Assembly (NCBI GenBank): GCA_040757115.1
Contig: JBFLYA010000063.1
Coordinates: 1-18,820, forward strand
DNA length: 18,820 bases
Direction: 5' to 3'
From: a bacterium
GTDB taxonomy: Bacteria; UBA9089; CG2-30-40-21; SBAY01
This document shows positions 1-15,768 of the stretch, piece after piece (the stretch's first letter is position 1; every line of letters starts with the position of its first letter). The translations under genes and the position numbers were made by a program. The notes beneath the pieces are model-generated. The model did not search any database. It was not told the origin of the DNA and saw only the letters and a program-made list of their open reading frames with translations.

Positions 1-45
1 TAGCATAAATAAAATATTCTGTCAAGAAAAATTTTAATATCAAAA

Positions 46-187
46 TTAGAAAATACTGAAAAATAACATCCTGGTATTATACTGCCTATTAGCGGTTTTT
101 ATTTTACTGCATTATAAATTTTTTTCTTGCAATTATCCCATAAATAGTGTATTATTATTATAATATTGAATTTAGAAAATACTGAAA
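46..187. repeat. 16-bp direct repeat pair in front of intI
   Basis: The 16-mer TTAGAAAATACTGAAA occurs exactly twice, at 46-61 and 172-187, on either side of the proposed intI promoter; the second copy runs into the ribosome binding site. Paired direct repeats upstream of an integron integrase could be integrase or repressor binding sites, or the scar of an insertion. The sequence alone does not decide. I see no clear attI core (GTTRRRY) paired with them. Confidence 0.6.
127..155 (+). promoter_or_regulatory. Probable intI promoter
   Basis: TTGCAA at 127-132, a 17-bp spacer and TATTAT at 150-155 resemble a housekeeping promoter facing intI. The ribosome binding site AGTGAGGA at 187-194 lies 6 bp before the ATG at 201. 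The surroundings are very AT-rich, so chance matches are possible. Confidence 0.45.
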
Positions 188-688
188 GTGAGGATATCAG
201 ATGAATCTTCTGGAACAAGTTAGTGATGTTATGCGGAAAAAACATTACTCAATTCGTACTGAACAAACTTATGTAGAGTGGGTAAAGCGATTTGTACTTT
301 TTCATAACAAAAAGCATCCAAAATATATGGGAGAGAAGGAAATTTCGCAGTATCTTTCTTACCTGGCAACTAAACAGAATGTTTCTGCAAGTACACAAAA
401 TCAAGCTCTTAATGCTATTGTCTTCCTCTATAAACATGTTCTTGAAATTGAATTGGGTGACTTTGGTCATATAGAGCGAGCTAAGAAACCAGAGAGGCTA
501 CCGGTAGTGATGGATAAGGCAGAAGTAAATCGTGTTTTATCAGTAATCTCAGGTACCTATGGGTTGATGGCAAAGCTCATTTATGGTTGTGGACTACGAC
601 TTATGGAATGTATCCGTTTGCGAGTTAAGGATATTGATTTTGCCCGGAATCAAGTGATTGTGCGAGATGGAAAAGGGATGAAGGATAG

Positions 689-863
689 AGCGGTTATTAA
701 CTGGAAGTTTACATAGGATAATACCCATAAATAAGGCATGAGAATAATCGTTCCGTTAGGAACATAATATCGGTAGGAATAGATAGACAAATCAATCAGT
801 TCCGTAGGAACGATATATTGGTAGAAAATTTAATTCTAAGTAAAGTTTTGAATAATAACTGCT
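689..863. mobile_element. MITE-like insertion inside intI
   Basis: A non-coding insert of about 175 bp has imperfect terminal inverted repeats: AGCGGTTATTA at 689-699 against TAATAACTGCT at 853-863. Similarity continues inwards for about 30 bp (AAGTTTAC against AAACTTTAC). The host sequence ATAGAG is present on both sides (685-690 and 864-869), consistent with a short target duplication. Whether the AG belongs to the element or to the duplication is ambiguous. It encodes no protein, so it would need a transposase supplied from elsewhere in the genome. Confidence 0.82.
750..827 (+). repeat. Tandem palindrome-bearing repeat inside the MITE
   Basis: Two diverged direct copies of about 30 bp lie at 750-779 and 799-827. 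Each starts with a palindrome (GTTCCGTTAGGAAC in the first, GTTCCGTAGGAAC in the second) followed by an AT-rich stretch ending in GGTAGRAA. The structure is like a REP pair of small hairpins in the same orientation. Confidence 0.7.
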
Positions 864-1390
864 ATAGAGTAACTATGCTACCGGAAAGTTTAAAACCATT
901 GCTATCAGAACATCTAAAACGGGTTAAGGTATTGCATGAACAAAACCTCAAGAATGGTGTTGGAGAGGTACATCTGCCTTTTGCGTTAGAGCGGAAATAT
1001 CCTAATGCAGGTAAAGAATGGGGTTGGCAATATGTTTTCCCATCAAAGAAGATATCTAAAGACCCGCGTAGTGACAAGATGCGTCGGCATCATGTTAATG
1101 AAAGTGGGCTGCAAAGAGCAATCTATAGTACTGCTCGTGCAGTTGGTCTTTCAAAACCAGTTAGCCCTCATACATTTCGACATAGCTTTGCTACACACTT
1201 ACTGGAGGCAGGGTATGATATCCGAACAGTACAGGAATTGCTTGGTCATAAGGATGTATCCACTACAATGATTTATACACATGTTATCAATAAAGGTGGG
1301 ATGGGAGTACAAAGTCCACTGGATATGTTAAATGATTTCTTAAACTGTGGATATTGTTGGAAACCCTATGTAACGCTCTCAACTTAAACC

Positions 1391-1449
1391 GTCTAATGAT
1401 AGAGTTGAGCGGCGTGCGTTAGCACGTCCGCTCCAACAATTTGTTAGGA
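1391..1449 (-). other. attC: attC site 1 (cassette recombination site)
   Basis: This is a 59-bp attC. On the minus strand it starts with R'' TCCTAAC (1443-1449) and ends with R' ATTAGAC (1391-1397), which is degenerate at its first base. Between them the arms GTTGGAGCGGACGTGC and GCACGCCGCTCAAC pair around a TAAC loop. The 5' arm on the minus strand has two unpaired extra bases (a G and an A), the asymmetry that sets attC polarity, so the site points leftwards. It lies 3 bp past the intI stop and 4 bp after the stop of the cassette gene at 1454. Confidence 0.9.
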
Positions 1450-1453
1450 GGTA

Positions 1454-1663
1454 TTATAAGTCTATTTGTGAAGTATCAATATCAAATATTTCTTTGAATC
1501 CTTTTTTGCCTTTTTCTGTAACATCAAATACTGTCTTTTTACCTTCTTTTGGGCTTATCCATTCCATTTCGATTAAGCGTTTGAATAATATAGGTGCAAG
1601 TTTTCCTCCTAAATGCTCGAAGCATTTACCTACAGCAGGTAATTTCCATTTTGTTTTAGCCAT
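1454..1663 (-). CDS. Small winged-helix protein (ArsR-type C-terminal half), cassette gene
   Basis: A 69-aa protein and the second gene of the integron cassette. Residues 14-58 (CFEHLGGKLAPILFKRLIEM, then EWISPKEGKKTVFDVTEKGKKGF) resemble the C-terminal winged-helix module of ArsR-like regulators: a Cys/His-containing turn, a helix with LGGKL, the aromatic W, and a wing ending in the T-x-x-G-x-x-x-F pattern. There is no separate N-terminal HTH, so it is either a stand-alone wing domain or a reduced regulator. The start lies 9 bp after the preceding DUF3795 gene, which suggests co-transcription; the SD (GTGAG) is weak. The stop lies 4 bp from attC1, the usual tight fit of a cassette gene. Its target is unknown. 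Confidence 0.75.
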   Translation of the reverse strand: MAKTKWKLPAVGKCFEHLGGKLAPILFKRLIEMEWISPKEGKKTVFDVTEKGKKGFKEIFDIDTSQIDL

Positions 1664-1672
1664 TTCTTCGTC

Positions 1673-2026
1673 TCACTTTTTTCTTTTAATTGATTGACGC
1701 TTATATTGAGCCATATTTTCAGCATGCCCTTGTATTCCCATTTCACGAATTTGTTGAATACATGATGCTCTGTCAGATTTGAATATTAAACCGAAGATTT
1801 TAGAAAAAATATTGTTAAACTTTTTGCACTCATTAGGATTCGTAAATTCTTTACAGTCAGCACATGATGAGTATTGATTCTCAATACAGCATGATCTAAT
1901 TTTGCACCATGACGCTTTTTGGTTATCGTGGCAAGCTGGGCATTTATCTCTAAGATACGCCCCGCAGTCACCACAATAAAGACCACAATATGCTACCAAA
2001 TTTTGATTGGCCACAATTTCTTTCAT
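1673..2026 (-). CDS. DUF3795 cysteine-rich protein, cassette gene
   Basis: A 117-aa protein of the DUF3795 family, recognised from its cysteine pattern: CGLYCGDCGAY near residues 14-24, then CPACHDN, WCKIRSCC and SCADCKEF, followed by a KFN segment and a late CIQQIREMG motif. The many CxxC and CC pairs suggest metal or Fe-S binding; the biochemical role of the family is not known to me. The frame is open upstream to 2083, but that part reads through attC2. The ATG at 2026 follows a purine-rich AGAGAGAAT and lies 17 bp inside the cassette, as expected for the first gene of a cassette. The C-terminus is Lys-rich. Family assignment is confident, function is not. Confidence 0.88.
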   Translation of the reverse strand: MKEIVANQNLVAYCGLYCGDCGAYLRDKCPACHDNQKASWCKIRSCCIENQYSSCADCKEFTNPNECKKFNNIFSKIFGLIFKSDRASCIQQIREMGIQGHAENMAQYKRQSIKRKK

Positions 2027-2043
2027 TTTATTCTCTCTGAGAA

Positions 2044-2175
2044 ACCTAACACTGAATTCAGCGGCGGCGGGGAGAATTGCCACTAAACTTTGTAAACATG
2101 ATTACCCCTTGAGATACTACAAAACTTTCAATCACGGCACAGTCTCCCGCCGTCCGCTGCAACGAATTGTTAGGT
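2044..2175 (-). other. attC: attC site 2 (long, about 132 bp)
   Basis: Read on the minus strand, R'' is ACCTAAC (2169-2175), followed by AATTCGTTGCAGCGGACGG, very close to classic attC left arms. The site ends with the partner arm and R' GTTAGGT (2044-2050). The arms CAGCGGACGGCGG-GAGA and CAGCGG-CGGCGGGGAGA pair with extrahelical bases on the minus-strand 5' side, giving the same leftward polarity as attC1. The loop is long (about 65 bp), like the long VCR-type sites. With attC1 it bounds one complete cassette of roughly 650 bp. Confidence 0.92.
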
Positions 2176-3781: not shown

Positions 3782-4785
3782 TCTTTTATTTCCCTTAGAT
3801 TCTTTGCGGCGTCTTCAGGGATAACGGTATTGATATAAAATCCTGTGCCCCACTCAAATCCAGCCACATGGGTAATTCTGGGAATAACCTCAATGTGCCA
3901 GTGATAATCTTTTAAATTACCTGGAAGGGAAAAAGGTGTTGTATGAATTATATAATTATATGGAGGGTCGTTCAATAATTTCTTTAATTTTAGCAAGGAG
4001 AATTTTAGAATCTGGGCTAATGCTGGGATTTGTTCTTTATTAATAGTTTCATAAGACGCACAATGGACCTTAGGAAGGATACAAATTTCATACGGAAATC
4101 TGGAGGCATAGGGAGAAAAGGTAATGAAATGTTCGTTCTCCATTACCAATCGCACATTATCTCTTATTTCCTGATGAACAATGTCACAAAAAACACACCT
4201 ATCCTTGAAATTATAATAGCTTAAAGCACCTCTAAGTTCTTCCTTCACGCGTTTTGGAACAATGGGTGTGGCAATTAATTGAGAATGGGGATGGTCTAAG
4301 CTTGCCCCAGCACTACTGCGATGATTTCTAAAGACGAGTATATATTTAAATCGAGCATCCTTTTTCAAATCAATCATTCTCTCCCGATAACTCAAAAGCA
4401 CCTTTTCAACATAATCAGTTTCTAAGTCCTCTAAACTTTTATGATGGTTTGGTGTTTCAATTACTATCTCATGTGCCCCTACGCCATTCATCATATCATA
4501 TATTCCCTCACCCTGCCTATTTAACTCTCCTTCTATGCGTAATGCAGGGAATTTATTCGGAATAGTTCTCACCCACCAACCTGGTGTATTTGGTGCAGTG
4601 CCTCGTTCACGCAGACAAAGTATTTCCGGTGGAGTTAGTGCCTCATTTCCTTCACAAAATGGACATCTTCCACTATTTATTGTGAACTCTCCTTCTGGGA
4701 CATGAAAATCAGATGGTCGTTGTGCGCGCTCCGTCGCAATTATTACCCATCTACCAATAACCGGGTCTTTTCTTAACTCTGGCAT
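3778..4785 (-). CDS. galT: Galactose-1-phosphate uridylyltransferase
   Basis: A GalT-type HIT-superfamily enzyme that exchanges UMP between UDP-glucose and galactose-1-phosphate (Leloir pathway). It has 335 aa, the normal length. The N-terminus is RKDPVIGRWVIIATERAQRP. Zinc ligands CPFC are at 41-44. The active site HPHSQ is at 165-169, with H167 the expected nucleophile that carries UMP. A second CVFC pair is at 197-200, and HWHIEVIPR is at 295-303. The SD AAGGAGG lies 6 bp before the ATG, inside the end of the upstream HEPN gene (13-bp overlap), so the two are translationally coupled. No galK or galE is present here, so a broader nucleotidylyltransferase role in sugar-phosphate use remains possible. 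Confidence 0.94.
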   Translation of the reverse strand: MPELRKDPVIGRWVIIATERAQRPSDFHVPEGEFTINSGRCPFCEGNEALTPPEILCLRERGTAPNTPGWWVRTIPNKFPALRIEGELNRQGEGIYDMMNGVGAHEIVIETPNHHKSLEDLETDYVEKVLLSYRERMIDLKKDARFKYILVFRNHRSSAGASLDHPHSQLIATPIVPKRVKEELRGALSYYNFKDRCVFCDIVHQEIRDNVRLVMENEHFITFSPYASRFPYEICILPKVHCASYETINKEQIPALAQILKFSLLKLKKLLNDPPYNYIIHTTPFSLPGNLKDYHWHIEVIPRITHVAGFEWGTGFYINTVIPEDAAKNLREIKE

Positions 4786-5192
4786 TGTTTCCTCCTTTTT
4801 ATTTCCTTTTTAATATATTTTTGAACACCCTTGATAAATTGTTGGGCATCATTTAACATATGCAGTGCCTTTTCTTTATCTGAGTTAAAAATCCTTCCAT
4901 CATCATGTAACTTTTTAAAAGTAAGATATGGTTTAACATCTTTTTTATCAATAATCCCTGATTGCAAGAAATTTAACCCAAATTCTTCAATTGGCTGTGA
5001 ATCAGTATCCGGTTCTATTTGTTTAGCGTAGAGTATGGCTCTGGCACTATGATAGACCGCATGATGCACCTTCATCATTGCCTCCGCATAATTCCCCATT
5101 TTCCACATCGTTGTGGCTAATTTTATCTTTTCTTCACCTACTTTTAATCTGACCAGAGCTTCTTCCCATAATTGTGAAGAATCCTCTCTCAT
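4773..5192 (-). CDS. HEPN-domain protein
   Basis: A 139-aa, all-helical protein with the HEPN fold. The helical core MMKVHHAVYHSARAILYAKQ (residues 39-58) matches the A-x-H-A-x-Y-H-A-A-R-A-L-L type signature, followed by an acidic EPDTDS turn and a region similar to the F-x-x-x-F-x-x-x-G-I-I-D stretch. HEPN proteins are often RNases or nucleotide-binding partners of MNT nucleotidyltransferases. Here there is no MNT gene and no canonical RxxxxH motif, so I would not call it a toxin. It starts 1 bp after nadK and overlaps galT by 13 bp, so it is an integral member of the operon. The Lys/Arg-rich tail (KKEIKRRKQ) may contact nucleic acid. Confidence 0.8.
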   Translation of the reverse strand: MREDSSQLWEEALVRLKVGEEKIKLATTMWKMGNYAEAMMKVHHAVYHSARAILYAKQIEPDTDSQPIEEFGLNFLQSGIIDKKDVKPYLTFKKLHDDGRIFNSDKEKALHMLNDAQQFIKGVQKYIKKEIKRRKQCQS

Positions 5193-6744: not shown

Positions 6745-6758
6745 TAAAAAATCCCGGC
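6745..6758 (-). terminator. Terminator at the 5S 3' end
   Basis: On the minus strand the 5S closing strand GCCGGGA is followed directly by a run of T (6746-6751). The 5S terminal helix (TCCCGG/CCGGGA) plus this U-tract can act as the intrinsic terminator of the transcription unit. Confidence 0.6.
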
Positions 6759-6869
6759 AATGTCTTACTCTCCCACACCGTTACCAGTGCAGTACCATCA
6801 GCGTTAGAGGGCTTAACGACCGTATTCGGAATGGGAACGGGTGTTTCCCCTCTGCCATAATCACCGGGA
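6752..6869 (-). rRNA. rrf: 5S ribosomal RNA
   Basis: A 118-nt 5S rRNA. The terminal helix TCCCGG/CCGGGA closes at both ends. Conserved blocks include CCCGTTCCCATTCCGAATAC (loop B/C region), AAGCCCTCTAACGCTGATGG and GGTAACGGTGTGGGAGAGTA. It lies 2.77 kb downstream of the 23S 3' end on the same strand, separated by protein genes, instead of the usual 50-200 bp. Confidence 0.95.
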
Positions 6870-7419: not shown

Positions 7420-7794
7420 CTAAAATTCAGTAAACTCTCTCCTTTTAAGCCCCGATAAATCAAGTGCGCCATCTTTCGGGCTCACGCTTATTTCCCATTC
7501 TTCCATAGTTAAGGCACCGATAAGTGCATCAATTTCTTTTCCATCCACTCTTCCTAAGTTATCAATTGGAACTACCTTTGTATCGAAAGCATATCCTTCC
7601 ATCTTGCCTTCCACAGCACAGTATTCCTTTACCTCTATTACTCTCCCTCCTAATGCTACTTTATAAGGTTCAGATAGCAGACGAATAGGAACACCTTCTA
7701 AGAAGTCTCTGATAATATAGGTATGCACAGAACCTGTATCAAATAGTGCATTTACCTTTCTCCCTTCTATTTCTATCTCTTTTACAATTCTCAT
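7420..7794 (-). CDS. Retropepsin-like (clan AA) aspartyl protease domain protein
   Basis: A 124-aa protein with the single-domain clan AA aspartic protease fold. NALFDTGSVHTYI (residues 15-27) contains the catalytic D19-T-G-S, and DALIGALTMEEWEI (89-102) is the second conserved psi-loop motif (the I-D-x-L-I-G type). The total length is what one half of a dimeric retropepsin needs, so the active enzyme would be a homodimer. There is no signal peptide or membrane segment. Such stand-alone domains occur in many bacteria with unknown substrates. SD-like AGGA lies 9 bp before the ATG. It is followed 9 bp later by the SHOCT lipoprotein gene, so the two are probably co-expressed. Confidence 0.85.
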   Translation of the reverse strand: MRIVKEIEIEGRKVNALFDTGSVHTYIIRDFLEGVPIRLLSEPYKVALGGRVIEVKEYCAVEGKMEGYAFDTKVVPIDNLGRVDGKEIDALIGALTMEEWEISVSPKDGALDLSGLKRREFTEF

Positions 7795-9585: not shown

Positions 9586-10138
9586 TTTTTGGTATATTAT
9601 ACTTTGAATAGTTACCAAAAAAGAAACAACTTAAAGTAGCACGGTCAAGTCGCACGACTTATTAGTACTGCTCAGCTCCCGATTGTCTCGAAGTTACTTA
9701 ATCATCCGAAGATAATCTTGTTTCTTTTCAACAATCAGGGTTCAATAGATTACTCTACTTACACTTGCAGCCTATCAACCTGGTCATCTCCCAGGAGTCT
9801 TCAGGTGGTCTTAAGAAGTCTAAAGACCTAACTACTTGGGAATTCTCTTGCGAGAATTTCTTTTCGAAAGATTTTTAGAAGCATCAAAAGATCCTAACAG
9901 ATAACTCAAAGAGAAATCTGTCCGAGATATCTAATCTTGGGGTGGGTTTCCTGCTTAGATGCTTTCAGCAGTTATCCCTTCCGAACATAGCTACCCAGCA
10001 ATGCCACTGGCATGACAACTGGTACACTAGCGGTTCGTCCACTCCGGTCCTCTCGTACTAGGAGTAGCACCCCTCAAATATCTTGCGCCCGCAACAGATA
10101 GGGACCGAACTGTCTCACGACGTTCTAAACCCAGCTCA

Positions 10139-10233
<95 letters not shown>

Positions 10234-10251
10234 ATATGGACTCTTGGGCAA

Positions 10252-10286
<35 letters not shown>

Positions 10287-10732
10287 ATAAGCGACGACCC
10301 TTCCACACAGAATCGCCGGATCATTAAGCCCTGCTTTCACATCTGCTTGACTTGTAGGTCTTGCAGTTAAGCTTCCTTGTGCCTTTATACTCTCCATGCG
10401 ATTGCCAAACGCATTGAGGAAGCCTTGGGACGCCTCCGTTACTTTTTAGGAGGCAACCGCCCCAGTTAAACTACCCGCCTGACATTGTCCCTCAACTGGA
10501 TTCACAGTCGTAGGTTAGAATCTAAATATAATAAGGGTGGTATCCCAAGGTTGACTCCACGCAGACTAACGCCCACGCTTCAAAGTCTCCCACCTATCCT
10601 GTACATACTATACCCAGATCCAATGTCAAGTTATAGTAAAGGTTCACGGGGTCTTTCCGTCTAGTTGCGGGTAACTTGCATCTTCGCAAATACTACAATT
10701 TCGCCGAGCCCCTCGTTGAGACAGCGCCCAAA

Positions 10733-10817
<85 letters not shown>

Positions 10818-10840
10818 TGGGGCTTCAGTTCAAAGCTTTA

Positions 10841-10920
10841 GAAAACAGGTAATTTAGTAATTAAGTGATTTCATGATAAGTCACTTCCTCACTTTTTCAC
10901 TTCCTCACTCTATTCTCCTG
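10841..10920 (-). other. 23S insertion 1 (helix 68 region)
   Basis: Between conserved 23S blocks (complement of CAAAGCTT and of CCTTAACC) lie about 80 nt of extra sequence. On the minus strand it contains GTGAGGAAGTGA twice and a stem AAGTGA/TCACTT. By position it falls in the helix 68 region. It may be excised as an intervening sequence or stay as an expansion. Confidence 0.7.
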
Positions 10921-10984
10921 ACCTCTCTCCTTAACCGTCCAGCACCGAGCAGGCGTCAGACCCTATACATCGTCTTACAACTTA

Positions 10985-11016
<32 letters not shown>

Positions 11017-11618
11017 TGGGCCATTTCTCTGCGACCTTTTCATGCTCAAAGAGTAAATCTTTTTACACTACTCAGGCACTCCTTTTCCCGAAGTTACGGA
11101 GTTAGATTGCCGAGTTCCTTAACGAGGGTTCTCTCGAGCGCCTTAGGATTCTCACCTCGCCTACCTGTGTCGGTTTTAGTACGGACACCTTCTAACCTGA
11201 CTAGAGGCTTTTCTTGGCAGTGTGGGGTCGGTCAGTTCCCGGAAATAAATTTCCAGTCCCCGATTACCTCTTGAGGTTTAATAACAGCTCGGATTTGCCA
11301 GAGTTGTCCCTCTACAGGCTTAGACAGTCACTTCCAATCGACTGATGACCTACCCTTCTGCGTCACCCCATCGCTCATAACGGTTAAAAGATGGTATCGG
11401 AATATTAACCGATTGCCCATCGCCTACGCTTTTCAGCCTCAACTTAGGATCCGACTTACCCTGGGCGGATTAACCTTCCCAAGGAAACCTTAGGCTTTCG
11501 GCGAACGGGTTTCTCACCCGTTTTTTCGCTACTTATACCGGCATCCTCACTTCCAGTTCGTCCAGCAGTCCTCACGGTCTGCCTTCACTCTACAATGGAA
11601 CGCTCCCCTACCATACAT

Positions 11619-11703
11619 AAGTTTATTGAATTTTTGAGTTAATTGCGTTTGTTGAGTTTTTCAACTCTACAAACTCTCTAAACTCTATGAACTCTATAAA
11701 CTT
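11619..11703 (-). other. 23S insertion 2 (helix 45 region)
   Basis: An 85-nt insertion closed by the perfect stem AAGTTTAT / ATAAACTT. On the minus strand the 5' arm is four diverged copies of an 8-9-nt unit (TAGAGTTCA, TAGAGTTTA, GAGAGTTTG, TAGAGTTG), and the tip is GAGTTG-AAAAA-CTCAAC. Its location, just after the conserved GGTAGGGGAGCG block, matches the helix 45 site where intervening sequences are known in other bacteria. Confidence 0.78.
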
Positions 11704-11761
11704 TTCTGTATCCATAGCTTCGGTGATGAGCTTAAGCCCCGTTATATTGTCAGCGCAGACA

Positions 11762-11795
<34 letters not shown>

Positions 11796-12079
11796 TGATG
11801 GCTGCCTCTAAGCCAACATCCTGGCTGTTTTTGTATCTCCACATCTTTTGCCACTTAGCTCATACTTAGGGACCTCAGCTGATGGTCTGGTTTCTTTTCC
11901 TTTTGACTATGGGGCTTATCCCCCATAGACTCACTCCCATAATACCAGTAACAGCATTCGGAGTTTGATTGAGTTTGGTAACCTGGAGGGGTCCCATAGC
12001 CCATTCAGAGCTCTACCGCCATTACTTACTTTATGAGGCTGTCCCTAAAGACATTTCGGGGAGAACCAGCTATCACTGA

Positions 12080-12117
<38 letters not shown>

Positions 12118-12772
12118 AAGTCTTTTCAACGACCGCAGGTTCGGACCTCCACGTGTGGTCAAACACGCTTCATCCTGGCCATAGATAGATCACTCAGCTT
12201 CGGGTCTACTAAATGCTACTAATAAATCGCCCTATTCAGACTTGCTTTCGCTACGGCTACATGGTTTTTCCCACTTAACCTTGCAACACTTAGTAACTCG
12301 CCGGTTCATTATACAAAAGGCACGCAGTCAGGCATTTCAGGATTAGATAATGGTTACTTAATCTTAGTTACCCAAGAGCTTTCTCCAAAATCCAATTTTA
12401 AACCTGCCATAGCCCTTCCACAGCTTGTAGGTATACGGTTTCAGGTACTATTTCATCCTCCTTCTGGAGTACTTTTCACCTTTCCCTCACGGTACTTGTC
12501 CACTATCGGTTGTTAGAGAGTATTTAGCCTTAGGAGGTGGTCCTCCCAAATTCCAACAGGATTTCCCGTGTCCCGTTGTACTCAGGAACTTAAACGCAGG
12601 AAGTTTATACTATTTCGCTTACAGGGTTATCACCTTCTCTGACTACTTTTTCCAAAGTGATTCAGCTATAGTATAAATTTTTGACTTCCCGGGTGCTACA
12701 ATATACCTCTACCCCATTTAAGTCCTCTTACCCCTAAACTTGCAAAGTAGTATAGACTTTAACGCAAATTCA

Positions 12773-12815
<43 letters not shown>

Positions 12816-12820
12816 GAACA

Positions 12821-12890
12821 TAATCATTTATTTAGTCTGTTGTTAAAAAGACAGAGTCTTAAAAACACATAACTAAATTTTTAATGATTA
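12821..12890 (-). other. 23S insertion 3 (5' domain)
   Basis: About 70 extra nt about 230-300 nt from the 23S 5' end. TAATCAT (12821-12827) pairs with ATGATTA (12884-12890), and an inner TTTAGT/ACTAAA stem continues it. It replaces a short loop between the conserved GAGGAAAAGAAA and GATTCCGTCAGTAGCGGCG blocks. Confidence 0.68.
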
Positions 12891-13170
12891 ATTTTTTCTT
12901 TCTTTTCCTCAGGGTACTGAGATGTTTCACTTCCCCTGGTTTTCTCTTAGACTCTATGTATTCAAGTCTAAGTGATGAAGCATGACCTTCACCAGGTTTT
13001 CCCATTTGGAGATCCCCGGATCAAAGTTTATTTGCAACTCCCCGAGGCTTATCGCAGCTTATCACGTCCTTCATCGTCTTCTAACACCAAGGCATCCACC
13101 GTAGACCCTTAGTAACTTGACCATGCCACTTTAAGTTGATTCTTTTTTAAGATGCTCAAGTTTCCCATAT

Positions 13171-13891: not shown

Positions 13892-15768
<1,877 letters not shown>

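Follow-up and report, generated by a model that had tools for sequence, protein, structure and literature searches.

Integrons are usually viewed as fixed platforms that move only gene cassettes and that themselves spread via transposons or plasmids. Published work describes cassette insertion at genomic (attG) or other secondary sites as well as, in class 1 integrons, cassettes of the attI type (PMC12901181, PMC2426708), and integrons of Treponema have been described in which the integrase gene (intI) and the cassettes lie on one strand (PMC3607928). The integron examined here occupies the beginning of a stretch of 18,820 nucleotides (the window), which represents the first 18.8 kb of contig JBFLYA010000063.1 (C63) of the repeat-rich, 462-contig bacterial assembly GCA_040757115.1 (G000, genome size 4.3 Mb), with base 1 being the contig end. 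It was found to consist of a broken intI on the plus strand, followed on the minus strand by two cassette recombination sites (attC) and two cassette open reading frames (ORFs). This arrangement is probably the result of a canonical platform, comprising intI, the cassette promoter (Pc) and the integron attachment site (attI), having been moved by an integrase in the manner of a cassette and joined behind the last attC of another array. In a limited literature search, cassette-like movement of an intI-attI platform or of a promoter-attI unit was not encountered, a weak indication that it is novel.

As in a sedentary chromosomal integron, an IntI of the TIGR02249 family, an attI with a G|TTRRRY core (the bar marking the cleavage point), a homogeneous attC family and divergent cassettes were identified in this genome (contigs C30, C118, C116, C205 and C298). 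It differs from such integrons in possessing several degenerate platforms, a duplicated attI (attI') and platforms situated behind other arrays.

The window begins approximately 70 bp before the expected attI, on the 5' side of intI, and this decisive side was therefore invisible to the initial annotation, which was made from the window alone. What remains of it is an attI-like repeat between intI and Pc (attI', 67-125, minus strand), with its core cut between 67 and 66 (G|TTATTTTTCAG), and a putative Pc (1-25, minus strand) with TTGACA at 25-20 and a -10-like TA[C/T]TCT that is cut by the contig end; a consensus promoter scan did not list this -35/-10 pair. The annotation had proposed a search for attI on either side, and a motif scan of the window returned a single attI-like motif, at 76-95 (minus strand), left of the intI start at 201, where 0 were expected by chance, with none to the right of 2175. 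In the paralogous platforms of C30, C118 and C116, the 5' side of intI reads attI', TTGACA-N17-TACTCT and attI (GCAGTAATATAAAACTGCYAATAGGCAGTATAATCTAAGG|TTAGRY), followed by divergent cassettes and attC sites; the Pc segment is complete in C118, C30, C116, C298 and C205, and is followed there by attI G|TTAGRY. The attI' repeat aligns to the attI of the same platform copies.

The reverse complement of the window shares terminal overlaps of exactly 127 bp (identical) with contig C205 and of exactly 106 bp with contig C298, both of which run on into attI and a cassette array divergent from intI. These two contigs differ at the first base beyond the window end (TATGCTA[T/C]TCT), which explains why the assembler stopped at this point, and the length of 127 was taken to be the assembly k since another overlap of the same assembly (C326-C283) is also 127 bp. 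Based on the attI-bearing paralogues and the exact overlaps, the integron of the window is most likely canonical, with intI, Pc, attI and a divergent array, its attI lying just past the contig end. An attI beside the intI 5' end with a divergent array is what the initial annotation had named as evidence against its own proposal of an integron whose cassettes point towards the 3' end of its intI, and the Pc-like element, the paralogous platforms and the assembly overlaps together point to it. The visible attC sites are the end of a different array placed behind the integrase, and the layout does not constitute a new geometry.

Both parts of intI were matched by TIGR02249, the 5' part (201-690, plus strand) at model positions 1-163 (E 5e-68) and the 3' part (863-1335, plus strand) at positions 160-315 (E 3e-72), bearing out the earlier identification of an integron integrase on the strand opposite to the attC sites. 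The two parts are separated by a repeat of approximately 172 bp (about 691-862) resembling a miniature inverted-repeat transposable element (MITE), with a 6-bp target duplication (ATAGAG) and imperfect inverted ends. Its core recurs dozens of times across the genome; in C30 and C114, the intI sequence is uninterrupted at this position. A 1-bp deletion at approximately 1332 removes the native TGA, which is retained in C30 and C324, with out-of-frame read-through from the native end at approximately 1335 to a stop at 1387. The window intI is a pseudogene. The distance of 3 bp previously noted between the intI stop and the first attC proved to be an artefact of this frameshift, and the suggestion of a relict holds for the intI gene, broken as it is by repeat and frameshift.

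Several further intI copies are likewise broken by short MITE-like repeats, two distinct families of which are present in the window (691-862 and 2181-2260) with dozens of genome copies each, the former disrupting intI and the latter sitting just before the second attC site. An intact divergent integron integrase (open frame of 468 codons) with a canonical array was identified on C39 of the same genome, and this array contains an attI motif approximately 3 kb downstream. Genome G010 possesses an intact close IntI (79-81% at the DNA level) with attI, but its 3' flank is unrelated.

Behind intI, attC1 (1391-1449), an ORF of 69 aa with no family match (1454-1663), a DUF3795 cassette gene (1673-2026; PF12675, E 1e-5) and attC2 (2044-2175), a 132-bp site of the family of the genome resembling Vibrio cholerae repeats (VCR), were identified, all on the minus strand. 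The two attC sites reported initially are real, as their folds are far better than those of shuffled sequences (z about -5 for attC1 and -4.7 for attC2) and further members of their families were found in this genome and in related ones, with attC2-type sites building long arrays elsewhere in this genome. R''/R' and L''/L' pairing, an extrahelical base and an upstream ORF were observed for these sites, with the R' half of attC1 mismatched. A scan for R and L boxes and bulges was passed by attC2 with the minus strand as top strand. A simple attC scanner that demanded strict R boxes overlooked attC1, as well as many VCR-like sites whose R boxes are mismatched, and homology seeds served for these instead. 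With the minus strand carrying both cassette ORFs, and the extra base located on its '' side, the array faces the 3' end of intI, a polarity which the initial annotation had read correctly. Other cassettes of the genome encode proteins resembling the DUF3795 product (L128 74-502 and 2044-2508), and similar-looking proteins are present in the C298 array; this family may be frequent cassette cargo in the genome.

The segment attC2-DUF3795-attC1 resembles a cluster of attC sites lacking integron integrases (CALIN) in that neither an integrase nor an attI belonging to it is visible, but differs in being joined at its last attC directly to an intI platform. Sites in such a position behind the integrase are rare. 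Among 80 related intI loci of many phyla, 246 kb of 5' side yielded 84 attC-like sites and 519 kb of 3' side yielded 2, neither of which was within 3 kb of intI, using a scanner that misses many sites, equally on either side. On C118, arrays of one orientation throughout flank intI on both sides, in the order attC sites, a long gene resembling that of an amylase, degenerate intI, attI and attC sites.

The 3' spacer of intI (1336-1396, plus strand) ends in a core half-site, |TTAGACGG on the minus strand. The homology of the intI unit shared by C63, C30 and C324 stops here at one nucleotide, 1396 (GTCTAA|), which is the core cleavage point N|TTAGAC of the other strand; the sequence that follows is attC1 in the window (the coaE locus), that of the hdrA side in C30 and that of the side of a tetratricopeptide repeat (TPR) gene in C324. 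Homologues of attC1 in G014, G001 and G000 have the sequence ..CTCTGTCG|TTAG, or one close to it, and are thereafter unlike each other. The attC1 of the window is a hybrid, following its family from 1449 down to 1397 and carrying the core TTAGAC of the intI unit from 1396, and, in keeping with this, its R' half mismatches its R''. On C60, a 132-bp unit with Pc and attI, which starts exactly at the attI' cut, follows an attC precisely at the G|TT of the latter. Two kinds of platform segment were thereby found to sit directly after an attC at a cleavage point.

These segments are similar to the delta-attI-type gene cassettes (PMC12901181), in which an array segment is bounded by attI in place of attC; in those, however, a resistance ORF precedes a truncated attI, whereas the unit that would have moved here is promoter-attI (C60) or the whole intI-Pc-attI (window). 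Recombination at G|TT without attI or attC structure, as in insertion at attG or secondary sites, could explain the hdrA and TPR-gene junctions, although such insertion has been reported for gene cassettes, and it is the end of the platform itself that lies at the junction here.

The platform at this locus is broken but canonical, its tandem position is unusual, and there is good evidence that it was joined through core sites. In the process that we infer, an integron integrase, from a copy intact now or formerly, would have recombined the core site of the platform, or of its circle, with attC1, so that intI-Pc-attI, or Pc-attI alone, moved as a cassette. Other platform copies would have entered secondary sites other than attC by the same route, and the window intI would have decayed afterwards through the repeat insertion and the frameshift. 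The earlier thought that intI was carried to the distal end of an array comes close to this explanation; its companion, an attI to the right, does not agree with the motif scan.

Several observations weigh against movement of the platform by the integrase. The linkage of the window to C205 and C298 rests on overlaps in a fragmented assembly, the cut base of attC1 is A instead of G, no recognised attI- or attC-like accessory structure was found at the core site 3' of intI, and an event of the C60 type was found only once. Furthermore, comparison with loci of the genomes G001 and G003 gave no clean empty site. The absence of intI from the G001 locus orthologous to that of C324 speaks for movement, but this locus diverges 22 bp before the core site, with another repeat there, and the hdrA locus of G001 retains an intI fragment without the 51-bp core segment. 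The region downstream of hdrA in G003 has no intI, but is unalignable past the gene end and so yields no empty site. At the hdrA locus, the 51-bp core-site segment between hdrA and intI in G000 (C30; L009 7287-7340) is absent from G001 (C77; L154 1-519); it is flanked by ACAG repeats and may have been lost through a small deletion.

The main rival is that the platform was duplicated to coaE by an unrelated process, with the integrase later placing the DUF3795/attC1 cassette or cassettes into the G|TTAGAC behind intI as a secondary, attG-like target. Secondary-site insertion by integron integrases is known (PMC12901181, PMC2426708), an identical junction is predicted, and the 718 bp adjoining coaE in G001 contain no array. 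Both explanations need the same unusual core site behind intI. Insertion of a cassette would account neither for the shared core base at which C30 and C324 end, although no attC is present in either at that point, nor for C60, and we regard this rival as unlikely, though deserving of consideration.

An assembly chimera at 1396/1397 is suggested by the fragmentation of the assembly and its many repeats. The approximately 6 bases shared at the junction are too few for a repeat-induced misassembly at k of approximately 127, the position of the break is exactly that of the cleavage point, C30 and C324 have the same end, and the C60-type junction is independent; a chimera is thus very improbable and was rejected. 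Equally improbable is a duplication of intI fragments driven by a transposon or insertion sequence with coincident ends, which was likewise rejected: repeat elements are indeed inserted in several intI copies, but the unit, which ends at G|TT core sites, contains no transposase or clear terminal inverted repeats. Least probable, and rejected as well, is a true inverted integron, with the attI of the window intI to the right and an array properly oriented towards the intI 3' end, for although this geometry is visible in the window alone and an atypical intI direction exists in Treponema (PMC3607928), where the relation of the intI 3' end to the cassettes is also unusual, the attI-like motif of the window lies only on the 5' side, paralogous platforms bear attI there, attC-like sites of the 80 related loci are almost only 5', and intI and cassettes are on opposite strands here and on one strand in Treponema, a difference that had been noted correctly from the start.

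Turning from the single locus to the lineage, we lean slightly towards the view that the integron platform is a mobile, cassette-like unit, in which directly repeated core sites, one behind intI and others at attI' and attI, would allow the integrase to bring about excision of intI-Pc-attI, or of Pc-attI alone, and insertion into attC arrays and chromosomal G|TT sites, giving rise to nested integrons and to arrays with several promoters and attI sites, such as that of G014 C49. If this is true, a platform with core sites at both ends would possess a self-spreading route into arrays and chromosomal sites, many attI/promoter arrays without integrase would be accounted for, and long silent arrays would gain internal promoters.

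Thirteen attI motifs were counted in G000 and ten in G014, with none found using a reversed control pattern, and four of those in G014 are located among attC sites on one contig (C49). No strong intI was found in G014. This genome belongs to another family of the same phylum, and some of its Pc regions are 92-98% identical to those of G000, as though attI/promoter segments had recently been transferred on their own and the integrase had not accompanied them. Among viral contigs, the attI motif had no exact match, and an integrase scan yielded only relatives of 47-58%, apart from weak matches.

Elsewhere in the window, the rRNA genes were found to exceed their Rfam models, with a 23S gene of 3414 bp (9709-13122; model 2925) and a 16S gene of 1610 bp (14159-15768; model 1533), which suggests that both contain intervening sequences. 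The 5S gene is situated apart from these, at 6752-6868, and proteins with a retropepsin-like aspartyl protease domain (7420-7794) and a HEPN domain (4773-5192) are encoded near the rRNA genes.
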